Shown here in pieces: positions 2,931-7,284 of a DNA stretch of 26,498 bases. The stretch is from the IMG/VR virus record IMGVR_UViG_3300046804_001233, positions 1 through 26,498 of that record; one strand, written 5' to 3'. Positions within the stretch are counted from its first letter, which is position 1, and each line of letters starts with the position of its first letter. Under the pieces are notes generated by a model. It did not search any database and was not told the origin of the DNA. It was given only the letters and a program-made list of their open reading frames with translations. The DNA comes from a virus. The position numbers and the translations under genes are program-made.

Positions 2931-2968
2931 CAAGAGTCTTTTAGCTTCGTCAAGTCATGAGGAAATGG

Positions 2969-2991
2969 GCCGGGGGCAACCCCGGCTTTTT
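2969..2991 (+). terminator. Rho-independent terminator upstream of the capsid gene
   Basis: GCCGGGG (2969-2975) pairs with CCCCGGC (2980-2986) around a GCAA (GNRA-type) tetraloop, followed by TTTTT (2987-2991). It separates the small-gene unit from the capsid unit. The rest of the 2874-3100 gap holds the hairpin at 2898-2930, a promoter-like element and the capsid leader hairpins. Confidence 0.88.
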
Positions 2992-2995
2992 CTTT

Positions 2996-3010
2996 GGCTA
3001 TTATTTGGCA
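2996..3010 (+). promoter_or_regulatory. Putative late promoter of the capsid gene
   Basis: GGCTATTATTTGGCA begins 5 bases after the terminator T-run. TATTAT (2999-3004) is one change from TATAAT. A start about 7 bases further, near 3011, would put the leader hairpin (3014-3026) at the very 5' end of the transcript. The layout matches that before the tail tube gene (6425-6454). Confidence 0.55.
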
Positions 3011-3013
3011 AGA

Positions 3014-3060
3014 GAGGCAGTGCCTCGCAGCAGCGACCGTACGCGGTCGGCAGCAGTGCT
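3014..3060 (+). promoter_or_regulatory. Structured 5' leader of the capsid mRNA
   Basis: Hairpin one is GAGGC-AGT-GCCTC (3014-3026). Hairpin two is CGACCG (3034-3039), loop TACG, CGGTCG (3044-3049). A third possible small hairpin in CAGCAGTGCTG follows (3051-3061). The first shares its GGCAGTGCC core and AGT loop with the hairpin before the tail tube gene. Such 5' hairpins are known to stabilise abundant bacterial and phage mRNAs; that role here is inferred. Confidence 0.5.
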
Positions 3061-3100
3061 GTGAAGCTGAACCAAATTTCCACAAACCCGCTTTAGGACA

Positions 3101-4078
3101 ATGCTTCTCGCAGGTGTTCCCCTTATTCCCGAGCTGTTCCTTGAGTATCAGCAGGAAGAGATCCAGGACAAGAATGCCCTGGTCACTTCCGGCCTGATGG
3201 TCACGAACGCTGCCATCCAATCTGAATTCCAGAAGGGCGGCAAAACCATCGACCTCCCCTTCTTCGGTGATCTGTCCGGTGATTCGGAAATTGACTCCGA
3301 CACTGAAGCCTCCACTCCGACCGACATTGCAGGTGATCTGCAGGTCGGTGTGCGCAACATGCGTCGCAAGAGCTGGAAGTCCTCCGACCTGGCTGCCGAT
3401 CTGTCCGGTTCCGACCCGATGCAGGCAATTGCCCGCAGCACCGGTCGCTACTGGATCCGCGACATGCAGAAAACCTGCGTCTCGATCCTGCAAGGCATCT
3501 TCAGCGGCCCGCTTGCCTCCAGCCACGCGGTCGGCGGCAACTCCTCCCAGCTGTCCCAGTCCCTGATGGTGGACGGCATCGCCAAGCTTGGTGATGCTGG
3601 TGACGAGCTGACCGGCATCATGATGCGTTCGCCGGTCTATTACGCTCTGATGAAGATGGACCTGATTGTTCCGTCTTCGACCACCTCTCAGCTTGACACC
3701 CGCCTGTCTGAGCAAGCCCTGGAGAAAGGCACCTACCTGGGTCGCCCGGTGTTTGTTGATGACCGCCTGCCGGTTTCTGTCGGCGCCGGCACCGGCAGCA
3801 CCGACGTTCACGACACCTACTTCTTCGGTCCCGGTGCTTTCGCTTATGCGACTGCTCCTGCCAAGACCCCGGTGGAAACCGATCGTGATCGTTTCCTGGG
3901 CATCGACTACCTGATCAACCGGACGCACTACCTTGTGCATCCGAACGGTATCAGCTGGCGCGGTACTTCCGCCAAGGCCGCTCCCAGCAACACCGAGCTG
4001 GCCACTGCTGGCAACTGGGTGAAGGTGTTCGATGACGATCGCAACATCCGCATCACCCGGATGCGTTGCTTCGTCTGA
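3101..4078 (+). CDS. Major capsid protein (HK97 fold, Gp13-like)
   Basis: A 325-aa protein starting MLLAGVPLIPELFLEYQQEE, with AGGA at 3095-3098 very close to the ATG. After a short N-arm come a Gly/Asp-rich segment with LPFFGDLSGDSE (about 52-63, E-loop side), the block DLSGSDPMQAIARSTGRYWI (about residues 99-118, spine-helix region: D..aGsDp...Ia...gRYW.R..Q), a region with GIMMRSPVYYALMKMDLI, then TYLGRPVFVDDRLPV and the C-terminal strands with FFGPGAFAY. This order is that of the 'major capsid protein 13-like' coat family, the HK97-fold shell subunit. There is no long N-terminal delta domain, which fits a separate scaffold gene. It has its own promoter-like element, structured leader and terminator, suited to very high late expression. 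The codons are visibly more GC-ending than in the neighbouring neck genes. Confidence 0.9.
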   Translation: MLLAGVPLIPELFLEYQQEEIQDKNALVTSGLMVTNAAIQSEFQKGGKTIDLPFFGDLSGDSEIDSDTEASTPTDIAGDLQVGVRNMRRKSWKSSDLAADLSGSDPMQAIARSTGRYWIRDMQKTCVSILQGIFSGPLASSHAVGGNSSQLSQSLMVDGIAKLGDAGDELTGIMMRSPVYYALMKMDLIVPSSTTSQLDTRLSEQALEKGTYLGRPVFVDDRLPVSVGAGTGSTDVHDTYFFGPGAFAYATAPAKTPVETDRDRFLGIDYLINRTHYLVHPNGISWRGTSAKAAPSNTELATAGNWVKVFDDDRNIRITRMRCFV

Positions 4079-4099
4079 TCACTGAGCTGATCTGTAAAC

Positions 4100-4123
4100 G
4101 CCCCGGTTCGCCGGGGCTTCTTT
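4100..4123 (+). terminator. Terminator after the capsid gene
   Basis: GCCCCGG (4100-4106), loop TTCG, CCGGGGC (4111-4117), followed by TTCTTT. The stem is very stable but the T-run is interrupted by C, so termination may be partial and let some transcripts continue into the neck genes. It lies 21 bp after the capsid stop. Confidence 0.75.
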
Positions 4124-4138
4124 CTATCCACAAGAACC

Positions 4139-4318
4139 ATGAGTGCTGGAACTTTCCGTATGCGGCGTGAGGCCGCCATTGCTGCCAAGGAGGCCAAGGC
4201 CCAGGAGGCTGCCGTAGAGGCCCCGGAGCCCGCCGAGAAGCCCGCTCCTACCGTTGCAAAGGCGAAGCCCAAGCCGGCTACCCCGACTGCTGCTCCTGCC
4301 CCTGCTCCCGCCGCCTGA
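4139..4318 (+). CDS. Ala/Pro-rich small protein after the capsid (59 aa)
   Basis: ATG 4139 gives 59 aa: a short start MSAGTFRMRREAAIAAKEAK, then an almost pure Ala/Pro/Glu/Lys low-complexity tail ending in PAPAPAA. No domain is recognisable and the tail is expected to be disordered. Tiny disordered proteins between capsid and head-tail adaptor genes are common in siphoviruses and are often virion-minor or assembly factors, but the function here is unknown. The stop TGA 4316-4318 overlaps the ribosome site (GAGAGGTGA) of the next gene, so the two are coupled. The ORF uses strongly GC-rich codons. Confidence 0.7.
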   Translation: MSAGTFRMRREAAIAAKEAKAQEAAVEAPEPAEKPAPTVAKAKPKPATPTAAPAPAPAA

Positions 4319-4328
4319 GAGGTGAACC

Positions 4329-4985
4329 GTGGCCTTTGTCTCGACACTGGGGGCACCCGATGCCAACTCCTACCTGTCGGTGGCAGAGGCCACGTCTCTT
4401 CTTGGTGATATTCCTGCAAGCTATGGCATCCAGCAATGGCTTGCACTGAACGATACGCAAAAGCAGCAAACGCTGGTTGCTGCAACAATGGCGATCAACC
4501 CTTTGCAATGGAAGGGACAGCCTGCTGGGCCTGATCAGAGCCTTGCTTGGCCCAGGCTGATGATTGCCGATTACTATTATTCTGAAACTGACGAGCTACC
4601 GCTTGATTTTAAGATGGGCGTTGCCTACATGGCAGCGTTTCTTGGTATCAACGGCGGCTATACAGGAATCCGTGATGCCGATGGTGGCGTCAAAAGACAG
4701 AAAAACAGCGAATACGAAGAAGTTGAGCTTGGCAATGGTGATCTGAGGGTCAAGTTTGACAAAAGCGGAATGGCGCAAACCGGAGCGCTGTTCATTCCGC
4801 CGTACTCGATGGATATTTTTCAGCGTTACATGATTCGTGGTGACTTCGTGCAGCCTAGAGTACGCCGTGAATCAACAGCTCGCGTTGGCTACAGAGGTTT
4901 TGTGACCAGGCAGAAGCCGAGTGGTGTTCGGATGATCAATGGTCAGCTGTGGCCGTATGGTGGCTCCTGGAATAACCGCTTCTGA
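4329..4985 (+). CDS. Head-tail adaptor (connector) protein
   Basis: GTG 4329 follows a strong GAGAGGTGA site (4317-4325); the product is 218 aa. The start GAPDANSYLSVAEATSLLGD, the following helical section with LNDTQKQQTLVAATMAINPL and W.G.....QSLAWPR match the phage adaptor family (lambda gpW/HK97 gp6-like function; often annotated DnaT-like): P.ANSY.s...A......, then k...L..At..id...W.G.......lawPR. It should form a ring under the portal as the first neck piece. The C-terminal third (Gly/Arg-rich, ending WPYGGSWNNRF) is an extension beyond the usual helical core. The position directly after capsid supports the call. Confidence 0.75.
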   Translation: MAFVSTLGAPDANSYLSVAEATSLLGDIPASYGIQQWLALNDTQKQQTLVAATMAINPLQWKGQPAGPDQSLAWPRLMIADYYYSETDELPLDFKMGVAYMAAFLGINGGYTGIRDADGGVKRQKNSEYEEVELGNGDLRVKFDKSGMAQTGALFIPPYSMDIFQRYMIRGDFVQPRVRRESTARVGYRGFVTRQKPSGVRMINGQLWPYGGSWNNRF

Positions 4986-4987
4986 TT

Positions 4988-5374
4988 ATGTCACTCGTTG
5001 ATGATGTTTTTGGTTCGATTCCCGGTCCACTCATTGACGAGTGGGGGATTGATGGCGTGTATGTGAAGAAGGTGGAAAACGCTGCGTATGATCCGCTGAT
5101 GGGTACGTTCGCCACGCCGGAGACGGCCGCAACGGAAGTGCCGATCAAGTTGGTCCCGCTTCGCATCAAGCCCGAAGAGGTAAAAGGCGAAATTCAGATT
5201 ACTGATCTGAAGATTTTGATCTCAGGTGATGCGCTGGGTGACTACTATCCGAAGACCCCTGACTGGATAAAGTATTCTCAGGCTGGAGTACAGCGTACCG
5301 CAAAGGTGATCATGCCATTGACCCATAGAGGATCGGCACCCGTGCTTCATTCCATCATCGCGAGGCTTACTTGA
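4988..5374 (+). CDS. Head closure / neck protein
   Basis: A 128-aa protein, start ATG 4988 three bases after the previous stop, with no clear ribosome site. It is beta-rich, with VDDVFGSIPGPLIDEWGIDG, then VPIKLVPLRIKPEEVKGEIQ, ITDLKILISGDALGD and a C-terminal strand. The size, the single beta-domain look (a loop, then strands carrying ISGDAL..) and the place between adaptor and tail-completion genes fit head-closure proteins such as SPP1 gp16/HK97 gp7-type (stopper) proteins. Sequence similarity is not directly recognisable, so the call rests on gene order and fold impression. Confidence 0.6.
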   Translation: MSLVDDVFGSIPGPLIDEWGIDGVYVKKVENAAYDPLMGTFATPETAATEVPIKLVPLRIKPEEVKGEIQITDLKILISGDALGDYYPKTPDWIKYSQAGVQRTAKVIMPLTHRGSAPVLHSIIARLT

Positions 5375-5375
5375 T

Positions 5376-6002
5376 ATGGCGAGAAGGCTTAGCGCAAGAT
5401 CTATGCGTGCCCTTGAACGAAGGGGTAGTAAAAGAAAGGCCGGCGACAAACCGTGGAGCCAAGTTAGCGAAAATATTCGCAATCGAATCAACAATGCTGC
5501 TAGACAGGCTGCGGCAGCGGTCATGAATGACCTGGCAGAGAAGGGGCCTGCGTACAGCGGCGAATTTCGTGATAAATGGCGTGCTATTGCAATTACTGGC
5601 GGCCTTGGTCAAACAACGCCAAGCGGGTATCCGTACAGCACGCGAGATATTCCAAGACTTGACACAAAAGTTAGAACGCTTGAAAAAGTAAAGGTCTTTG
5701 AAATAGTCAATACAAGTCCATACGCCCTTTATGCTATGGATATTATTCCTGGCATCTGGAGAAAACCCGAAGGATCTGAACCAATTGGCGGTATTGAGTT
5801 TGGAGTAAAAAGAGGTAGGCGTGAATATGGAGAAACTTTCCGTGGCGATGTTGACCTTGGCCAAGAAGGCAAAGGAAGTACAACAGCTGAAAAAGACTGG
5901 TACGAGAATTATGTCAGAGGCGGTGGTCTTTCTGCTGGTGTCAAAAGGGCTGTTAAGTTCGCCATTCGTAGTGGCGGCGATGGCAACGTCAGGATCTCAT
6001 GA
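5376..6002 (+). CDS. Tail completion protein (HK97 gp10-like)
   Basis: A 208-aa basic protein beginning MARRLSARSMRALERRGSKR, with GAGG (5362-5365) upstream of ATG 5376. A long N-terminal helix (about 25-55, with NIRNRINNAARQAAAAVMND) leads to a segment with YSGEFRDKWRAIAITGG and the block VFEIVNTSPYALYAMDIIPG. The helix followed by '...v.N..pYA...e.G/pG' is the hallmark of the gp10-like family, which joins neck to tail tube. The C-terminal region is Gly/Arg-rich. Its stop overlaps the next ATG (ATGA 5999-6002). The G+C content appears lower than in the capsid gene, with many AGA codons. Confidence 0.65.
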   Translation: MARRLSARSMRALERRGSKRKAGDKPWSQVSENIRNRINNAARQAAAAVMNDLAEKGPAYSGEFRDKWRAIAITGGLGQTTPSGYPYSTRDIPRLDTKVRTLEKVKVFEIVNTSPYALYAMDIIPGIWRKPEGSEPIGGIEFGVKRGRREYGETFRGDVDLGQEGKGSTTAEKDWYENYVRGGGLSAGVKRAVKFAIRSGGDGNVRIS

Positions 6003-6430
6003 ACTATCAAGCAATCTGCGCCGCACTTGAAGCACCACTGAACAATGCGTTTATCGCCTTGACTCCTCCTGTCAAGGTTTTCTTTGACAACTTGATTGTC
6101 ATGCCTCCTGATCCGCCAGGTGAGTACGTGATGGTCAATATCACTTTTGGCCTGACAAGTGAATCTACGTTGACAAATTCTCTTGATCGTGCTCGTGGCG
6201 CGATCATTGTCAGAATCTTCACCGAAAAAGGCAGAGGCGGCAGAAGGGCCAGGCAGCTGGCCGGTGTCGCATCTCAGATTTTCAGTATTCTCGGCGCAAC
6301 AAAAAGGCCAGCTACTGGAACATTCGTGAGGGTTCATGATGTTTCCGGGCCTAATTTTTACATGGATGAAGCTCAACCCCATTTCATGGCTAGGCTCTCT
6401 GCGACATGGGACGCAACTAGCTGCGGCTAG
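5999..6430 (+). CDS. Tail terminator protein
   Basis: A 143-aa protein whose ATG overlaps the previous stop by four bases, with AGGA at 5991-5994. The pattern of an N-terminal helix (MNYQAICAALEAPLNNAFIA), a strand segment with PPDPPGEYVMVNITFG, then arginine-containing strands (SLDRARGAIIVRIFTEKGRG), a helix and a last pair of strands ending FMARLSATWDA matches the lambda gpU/HK97 gp11-type ring that caps the tail tube, and the gene sits in that position. No enzymatic motif is expected or seen. The call relies on layout and secondary-structure pattern. Confidence 0.65.
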   Translation: MNYQAICAALEAPLNNAFIALTPPVKVFFDNLIVMPPDPPGEYVMVNITFGLTSESTLTNSLDRARGAIIVRIFTEKGRGGRRARQLAGVASQIFSILGATKRPATGTFVRVHDVSGPNFYMDEAQPHFMARLSATWDATSCG

Positions 6431-6438
6431 CATTAGTG
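6425..6438 (+). promoter_or_regulatory. Putative promoter of the tail tube gene
   Basis: GGCTAGCATTAGTG overlaps the end of the tail terminator gene. TAGCAT (6428-6433) is a poor -10, but the GGCTAnnATT core matches the capsid promoter element. The distance to the following hairpin (9 bases after the hexamer) is nearly that of the capsid leader (10). Confidence 0.4.
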
Positions 6439-6441
6439 CAT

Positions 6442-6460
6442 CGGGCAGTGCCCGCACTGC
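6442..6460 (+). promoter_or_regulatory. Leader hairpin of the tail tube mRNA
   Basis: CGGGC-AGT-GCCCG (6442-6454) shares its AGT loop and inner stem with the capsid leader hairpin, while the two outer pairs differ in a compensatory way. An alternative fold pairs GCAGTG (6445-6450) with CACTGC (6455-6460). The two folds exclude each other. A T-rich stretch follows, so weak termination is also possible. Confidence 0.5.
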
Positions 6461-6480
6461 TGTTCATTTCTTCAAGGTCC

Positions 6481-7233
6481 ATGTCCTGTGATACCACGGT
6501 ACTGACCGGCTCGTCGGGCGCTTTCTGGTATAAGCCGGCAAACACCGAAGCCTGTCTTGCTGCCTCCGCTTTTCCTTCGACTGGCGCCAACATCACTGTT
6601 GGTGATTACTACGGTTTCAAGGTTGATGATCCCGTTGTCCTGGCGTATCCCTCTGGCGCAACGACCACTGGAGCTATCGCCGCTGGTGATTACTTCGTGA
6701 AAACCTATGATCCCACCACCGGGATCATGACGCTTGCCAGCACTGTTGGTGGCACCGCCGTTACCGCAACCAGTGCTCCCACCAACTTCGGCAGCTCGCT
6801 GGCCACGATTTCCTACAAGGCCTTCGCTCCGATCGCTCAGGTCCGGGACTGGACCCTGGAGATCACCAGGGCCGAGATCGACGTGACCACCATCGGTGTT
6901 CCCAGCGGCCAATTTGCGCCGTTCCGTAAGTATCAGACCTCGTTTGCTGATGCTACCGGCACGACCACCGTGTACTTCACGGACGCTGACTCGGCCATGT
7001 CGAACCGGCTCATCAGTGACGTGCTTCAGCGTCGTCAAAATGGTGCTGCAGTGAAGCTCTACATTGATGCCGTCTACTCTGGCGGTTCGATTTCGGAGAC
7101 GCTGAGCCGCTCGATCGCTTGCGATGTGGTGCTGACCTCTGCTGGTTTCGGCGTCAACCCGGATGATGCGCAGAACGTGACCATCAACTTCCGCCCGTCC
7201 GGCAACGTCACCATCGACCTGACCCGCACCTGA
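6481..7233 (+). CDS. Major tail tube protein
   Basis: Start ATG 6481 (MSCDTTVLTGSSG...) is preferred over an upstream in-frame TTG at 6436, because AAGG (6474-6477) precedes it and the leader hairpin would otherwise be coding. The 250-aa product has an N-terminal insert domain (about 1-115, Gly/Thr/Ala-rich, small beta) and a C-terminal tube domain from QVRDWTLEITRAEIDVTTIG through strands with TTTVYFTDADSAMSNRLISD, a helix and VKLYIDAVY, to a last strand pair ending in GNVTIDLTRT. That is the beta-sandwich plus helix order of lambda gpV-type tube subunits (W.L......D.T..G). Expected to be one of the two most abundant virion proteins. It is followed by a terminator. Confidence 0.85.
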   Translation: MSCDTTVLTGSSGAFWYKPANTEACLAASAFPSTGANITVGDYYGFKVDDPVVLAYPSGATTTGAIAAGDYFVKTYDPTTGIMTLASTVGGTAVTATSAPTNFGSSLATISYKAFAPIAQVRDWTLEITRAEIDVTTIGVPSGQFAPFRKYQTSFADATGTTTVYFTDADSAMSNRLISDVLQRRQNGAAVKLYIDAVYSGGSISETLSRSIACDVVLTSAGFGVNPDDAQNVTINFRPSGNVTIDLTRT

Positions 7234-7259: not shown

Positions 7260-7284
7260 GCCGCCGCTTGTTCGGCGGCTTTTT
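7260..7284 (+). terminator. Terminator after the tail tube gene
   Basis: GCCGCCG (7260-7266), loop CTTGTT, CGGCGGC (7273-7279), then TTTTT (7280-7284): a perfect 7-bp GC stem 26 bp after the stop. It separates the highly expressed tube gene from the tail assembly genes. Confidence 0.87.

Follow-up and report, generated by a model that had tools for sequence, protein, structure and literature searches.

The leaders of the major capsid and tail tube genes in a 26,498-nucleotide (nt) virus fragment (IMG/VR record IMGVR_UViG_3300046804_001233, positions 1 to 26,498; hereafter the window) carry small hairpins with an N-G-U triloop, and such hairpins are widely kept before the same two genes in related phages. 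We propose that the capsid and tail tube mRNAs carry a cis-acting element of one to four of these hairpins, each closed by C-G or, rarely, U-A. The leader would begin at a GCTAnnnT promoter (tube and freshwater capsid) or after the stop codon of the upstream gene (marine capsid), and its last hairpin would end ~25-60 nt before the start codon. On balance, comparison of these leaders favors an RNA element recognized by both sequence and shape, with a putative trans-acting reader, that would control both mRNAs. An earlier note, made from the letters of the window alone, had described a structural, promoter-linked element common to the two leaders; that observation was confirmed, it passed the note's own check against related phages, and it understates the extent of the element. 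The features of the two leaders are as follows.

2996..3004, plus strand: capsid -10 box GGC-TATTAT (GGCTAnnAT); no -35 box seen; GCTAnnnT is kept in relatives
3011..3011, plus strand: predicted capsid transcription start, an A 7 nt after the -10 box
3014..3026, plus strand: capsid leader hairpin H1, GAGGC-AGU-GCCUC
3034..3050, plus strand: variable insert hairpin CGACC..GGUCG, present in the alignment in some relatives only, other relatives having different paired stems
3050..3062, plus strand: capsid leader hairpin H2, GCAGC-AGU-GCUGU, an NGU triloop with a G.U outer pair
6425..6433, plus strand: tube -10 box GGC-TAGCAT
6440..6440, plus strand: predicted tube transcription start, an A
6442..6454, plus strand: tube leader hairpin CGGGC-AGU-GCCCG, ending 26 nt 5' of the ATG
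6444..6461, plus strand: alternative stem GGCAGUG-CCCG-CACUGCU, clade-specific, overlapping the tube hairpin and mutually exclusive with it

H1 and the tube hairpin, the two 13-mers from which the earlier note had started, are both present at these positions, and they share the loop and the inner three pairs while the two outer pairs differ and still pair. The note had called these differences compensatory changes; pairing is indeed kept, but the comparison is between leaders of different genes and not between orthologues. The two are the sole perfect 5-bp AGT-triloop hairpins in the window, where dinucleotide shuffles gave an expectation of 0.4. Each lies just downstream of one of the only two perfect GGCTAnnATT matches in the window (2996-3005 and 6425-6434), at a spacing of 8 (capsid) and 7 (tube) bases rather than the 9-10 that had been claimed. 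When up to one mismatch was allowed there were 20 matches against 15 expected, so that the motif alone is not rarer than chance and its significance lies in its conservation. The 13-mers do not resemble intrinsic terminators: no T run follows either of them, and a terminator scan listed only the alternative tube stem at 6444-6461, weakly. The outer pair of H2 is A-U in three relatives (L020, L026 and L043), and an alternative pairing of H2 is possible (UCGCAGCA/UGCUGUGA).

Among close relatives both leaders are kept with striking identity. The H1 signature GAGGCNGTGCCTCGCAGC had 36 matches across all viral contigs, all but one on contigs carrying this capsid gene; the lone off-target match (L072) lay on an unrelated contig and was discounted as chance. 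The leaders of more distant freshwater capsids (72-78% identical) string together short hairpins whose triloop is NGT and whose stems differ (GAGGC, GCGGT, GCGGC, GCAGC, ACAGC, TCGGC, GGGGC and CTGGC). Taking the expectation from dinucleotide shuffles for freshwater and marine capsid leaders alike, and allowing one G.U pair in the freshwater count, we found 95 NGU-triloop hairpins in 44 distinct freshwater leaders, at least one in 43 of the 44, and a total of 1.0 in the shuffles. Perfect triloop hairpins had the NGT loop in 72 of 102 cases in these leaders, versus 2 of 117 when coding sequence from the same phages was taken. In most freshwater capsid leaders there are at least two NGU hairpins, those after the first standing clear of the 5' end. 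Nearly all freshwater capsid leaders have 25-60 nt between the end of the last hairpin and the start codon. The stem of H1 is near-constant among freshwater capsid orthologues (GAGGC/GCCTC, with a G.U pair in L032 and GGGGC/GCCCC in L313); the last hairpin in one set of capsid leaders has A-U or G-C at its outer pair and again A-U or G-C further in. One capsid leader (L019), compared with that of L031, is without the stretch that holds the terminator and promoter and keeps the hairpins, which may be a real loss or an assembly collapse.

Marine contigs were first found with the pattern CGGGCNGTGCCCGCA, that is, through the hairpin itself, which precedes the tube gene there. The search was repeated free of that bias by fetching loci from IMG/VR by tube protein similarity alone, which gave at least 600 matches. 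The marine capsids are ~30% identical to that of phage S-H1, and their leaders have one or two NGU hairpins on wholly different stems (GTCCC/GGGAC, GCCCC/GGGGC, GCATC/GATGC, GCACC/GGTGC, CCAAGTC/GACTTGG and CCAGATC/GATCTGG). Among the matches listed, all 24 distinct capsid leaders in the tube-fetched marine loci contained an NGU hairpin (29 hairpins, 0.3 expected), and 29 of the 31 triloop hairpins closed by a Y-R pair had NGT. In a marine virus from the single cell AG-345-A17 a UGU loop stands on a stem of nine pairs, and in the capsid leader of Prochlorococcus phage MED4-184, which we grouped with P-HS2 and MED4-117 by capsid matches, ACGTGGT-TGT-GCTACGT and GAGGT-TGT-GCCTC come after a TAGTAT box. 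In marine capsid leaders the last hairpin ends 28-35 nt before the start codon, and the element lies at or almost at the upstream gene's stop codon, with no promoter seen there. The 5' end is thus its usual place and not a requirement. The earlier note had put the hairpins at the very 5' end of their transcripts, and this agrees with the predicted distance of 2-3 nt in tube and freshwater capsid leaders but not with the marine capsids.

Tube leaders, among the matches listed, had CGGGC-(A/T)GT-GCCCG in 59 of 61 distinct sequences, and in 59 of 59 a CTAnnnT -10 box preceded it at a spacing of exactly 9 nt; the spacing from promoter to hairpin in another set was 7-9 nt in 63 of 63. The promoter of the tube and freshwater capsid genes is GCTAnnnT without a -35 box. 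The A seven bases after the -10 box, equivalent to the predicted capsid start, is kept in 100% of 41 non-redundant tube promoters, which would place the beginning of the hairpin at +3 or +4. Its end lies 25-31 nt before the tube start codon. The two deviating tube hairpins (L387 and L425) stand at the usual position and each have a single change, one giving CGGG-CAGTGT-CCCG (a hexaloop like that of the iron-responsive element, by one insertion) and the other CGGCC-AGT-GCCCG (one mismatch). The loops of the L249 and L291 tube hairpins are ACC and ACT, which read as allowed NGT loops on the opposite strand; both stems are intact. Tube orthologues vary at the outer pair alone (C-G 20, U-A 7, U-G 3, broken 0). 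The alternative tube stem at 6444-6461 was considered as a bistable switch and rejected as not general: freshwater clades keep it, with wobble changes, and most marine tube leaders are without it.

Over the whole set there were 18 distinct stems. Among 35 distinct hairpins the closing pair was C-G in 32 and U-A in 3, and the first loop base was free (A 12, C 7, G 7, U 9). Stems change on both sides with pairing kept, and the loop stays NGU. The covariation that the earlier note proposed to look for in related genomes is therefore real across this wider set, but not within the H1 orthologues, whose stem hardly varies, or the tube orthologues, which vary only at the outer pair. Distinct perfect hairpins were almost all in the sense orientation (NGT 35 versus ACN 2), a bias that argues for an RNA element rather than a DNA operator. 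Because the loop is kept while the stem need only pair, we infer a trans-acting factor, most likely a protein of the cell or the virus, that probably reads the triloop. By binding, it would govern how stable the two mRNAs are or how well they are translated, most likely upward; both products are required in hundreds of copies. The first hairpin in tube and freshwater capsid leaders, at 2-3 nt from the predicted 5' end, could also shield the transcript against 5'-dependent decay. More tentatively, the NGU hairpins may be the recognition code of a putative RNA-binding protein that controls capsid and tail tube after transcription, as a regulon of two genes, in marine and freshwater cyanosiphoviruses, hairpin number tuning the output; we found no phage counterpart of such a system.

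Several observations weigh against a loop-reading factor acting on both mRNAs. The folds of single sequences were mostly no more stable than those of shuffles, and we set fold stability aside and used the comparative evidence in its place. The tube hairpin stem is nearly invariant, so that structure and sequence are inseparable for the tube copy. Among isolates, MED4-184 has no NGU hairpin in its tube leader; S-H1 and KBS-S-2A (L214 and L343), which both infect Synechococcus WH7803, each carry a pair of UGC-loop hairpins in the capsid leader, possibly a specificity shift; KBS-S-2A has no hairpin before its tube gene, and S-2L has no such hairpins.

The earlier note had offered two readings, an mRNA stabilizer and a shared regulatory target. 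As a 5'-terminal stem-loop of the ompA/papA kind, the element would leave no more than 2-3 unpaired nucleotides ahead of the hairpin and so slow decay that depends on pyrophosphohydrolase and RNase E, the loop being incidental. The constant distance between -10 box and hairpin and the invariant predicted +1 A fit this reading, as do the requirement of B. subtilis RppH for unpaired 5' nucleotides and the stabilization of mRNA by 5' stem-loops (PMC3997798 and works cited there). It does not explain why the NGU loop is kept on changing stems, why further hairpins lie inside the capsid leader away from the 5' end, or why the marine capsid hairpins abut the upstream stop codon without a promoter; a pure 5'-end stabilizer is therefore insufficient, and we consider it rather unlikely. 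Loop conservation, the several hairpins per leader and the marine capsid layout favor the other option, a shared regulatory target. As a rival reading, the hairpins might be sites of translational repression or autogenous control, bound by a virion or regulatory protein so as to delay or restrict the making of capsid and tube. The last hairpin does lie 25-60 nt before the AUG, within narrow ranges in marine capsids and tubes, and several sites per leader would suit cooperative binding, yet the hairpins do not overlap the ribosome-binding site and repression would be an odd need for the most abundant products. We regard translational repression as unlikely.

It is quite improbable that the hairpins are sites in nascent RNA for antitermination or modification of RNA polymerase, like HK022 put or lambda nut/boxB, by which polymerase would pass the terminators flanking the capsid and tube genes. 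This idea agrees with their place directly after a promoter and with the intrinsic terminators that bound the units at both ends, and phage sigma factors imply that polymerase is reprogrammed. Both hairpin genes in the window are closed by terminators, however, and readthrough would undo the apparent layout; the marine capsid hairpins are not behind a promoter, and inspection of the leaders by eye revealed neither the two contiguous stems nor the boxA of put and nut. Each hairpin is also a perfect DNA dyad, the tube copy stands at a fixed place in its promoter, and the ACT and ACC loops of two tube leaders are those expected of allowed loops turned around, all of which would suit operators for a dimeric DNA-binding protein over the transcription start. 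Given the sense orientation of nearly all distinct hairpins, outer bases that change symmetrically with pairing kept, and many copies far from a promoter, we consider DNA operators highly improbable.

An RNA element with a reader of its loop has partial likenesses among known systems. The 5'-terminal stem-loops of E. coli ompA and papA are likewise short hairpins beside the 5' end of the mRNA from a strongly expressed gene; here, in contrast, the loop is kept, a leader may hold several hairpins, and internal positions occur too. HK022 put and lambda nut/boxB are phage RNA hairpins just after a promoter, but with other loops and another layout, and both genes here end in terminators. The iron-responsive element has a CAGUGN loop with an AGU pseudo-triloop, thus a C-AGU-G apex, and is bound by IRP1/aconitase. 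The apex is shared, but that element has a fixed A-G-U and an unpaired C five bases before the loop, whereas the phage hairpins have a free first loop base, continuous stems of at least 5 bp without a C bulge, and no sixth loop base. The constitutive decay element of TNF is a triloop hairpin with a UGU loop that is read mainly by shape by Roquin (PMC5603727). The NGU loops, closed by C-G or U-A, are like it Watson-Crick-closed triloop hairpins, a works-like comparison only, as the decay element is eukaryotic; bound by a ROQ domain, it promotes decay and lies in animal 3' untranslated regions, while the phage hairpins lie in 5' leaders with any base at loop position 1. We claim membership of neither family; a kept loop on freely changing stems is the look of hairpins read by a protein. 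Structured 5' leaders occur in cyanophages as the Rfam motifs PhotoRC-II, wcaG and manA (PMC2864571), which belong to other genes. With the Rfam 15 covariance models at the gathering cut-off, no family was found in the window or in four related contigs (L008, L030, L033 and L027), and the leader alone gave only scores far below threshold. No published description of the element was found in Rfam and the mostly open literature, which did not include a 2017 survey of candidate structured RNAs.

Across 15 phage records that are close to whole, NGU hairpins recurred only before the capsid and tube genes, with scattered singletons elsewhere. A general genome-wide repeat of GGCAGTGCC was rejected, as the pattern has background frequency outside the two leaders, and so was a general trait of the capsid family, since six non-cyanophages with homologous capsids and the T7-like P-SSP7 are without the hairpins. 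Mimicry of a host element was rejected on three results: the tube promoter with its hairpin was present in 0 of 201 genomes of the picocyanobacterial family; GAGGYNGTGCCTC matched in 2 of 4 hosts, apparently within coding sequence; and NGT loops were not enriched in marine Synechococcus RCC307 (8 of 143 intergenic triloop hairpins in 400 kb, about one in sixteen). No prophage of this kind was found in sequenced genomes. One sigma-70-family factor is encoded in 10 of 13 related phage records (G001-G004, G020-G022, G027, G028 and G034; frames of ~290-350 aa, for example L332:16188-17048, minus strand) and may read the GCTAnnnT promoter.

We treated the window as a fragment of an uncultured cyanosiphovirus with a presumed cyanobacterial host. 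Its 26.5 kb hold consecutive genes for scaffold, capsid, adaptor, head-closure, tail-terminator, tube, tape-measure and tail proteins. No DNA match to the window was found in phage collection records, and the cyanobacterial palindrome HIP1 (GCGATCGC) has zero copies in positions 1-26498. The sole isolate relative of the tube protein in a first search was Cyanophage KBS-S-2A (43%); the tube protein of a marine relative was 65% identical to that of KBS-S-2A and 33% to that of S-2L. The genes and terminators around the two leaders are as follows.

2967..2988, plus strand: intrinsic-terminator-like hairpin with a T-rich tail, directly 5' of the capsid promoter; same layout in many freshwater relatives
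3101..4078, plus strand: major capsid protein gene (phrog_247)
4100..4117, plus strand: intrinsic-terminator-like hairpin 3' of the capsid gene
5999-6430: tail-terminator gene upstream of the tube gene, its stop codon overlapped by the tube -10 box
6481..7233, plus strand: tail tube (major tail) protein gene, named from its position and from the match of relatives to the S-2L 'major tail protein', with no PHROG hit itself
7260..7279, plus strand: intrinsic-terminator-like hairpin 3' of the tube gene

With a terminator-like hairpin after each gene, and another before the capsid gene, capsid and tube each look like a transcription unit of their own. In one relative (L228 ~19700; G003:59712, minus strand) a third GGCTAGCAT promoter stands right after the capsid terminator and is followed by TGGCGG-cttt-CCGCCG and a small gene, a 5' hairpin without an NGU loop. 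A small basic protein encoded at 1978-2316 on the plus strand is kept in all compared phages, MED4-184 included, and is 79% identical to one in Puniceispirillum phage HMO-2011, with no Pfam hit. No case could be made for it as the binding factor, and it is also present in HMO-2011 and roseophages.

In the hairpins, cyanophages with capsids only ~30% identical have kept a compact RNA signal, and their group is common in ocean and lake metagenomes (at least 600 tube matches in IMG/VR). The hairpins make it cheap to locate, in unannotated contigs, the two virion genes with the most abundant products. They also pose a testable question, namely by what means a double-stranded DNA phage whose late genes are clustered produces two of its proteins in hundreds of copies, and whether an RNA-binding factor dedicated to the task is responsible. 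If a protein that reads the triloop were found, it would make with the hairpin a new modular RNA-protein pair.

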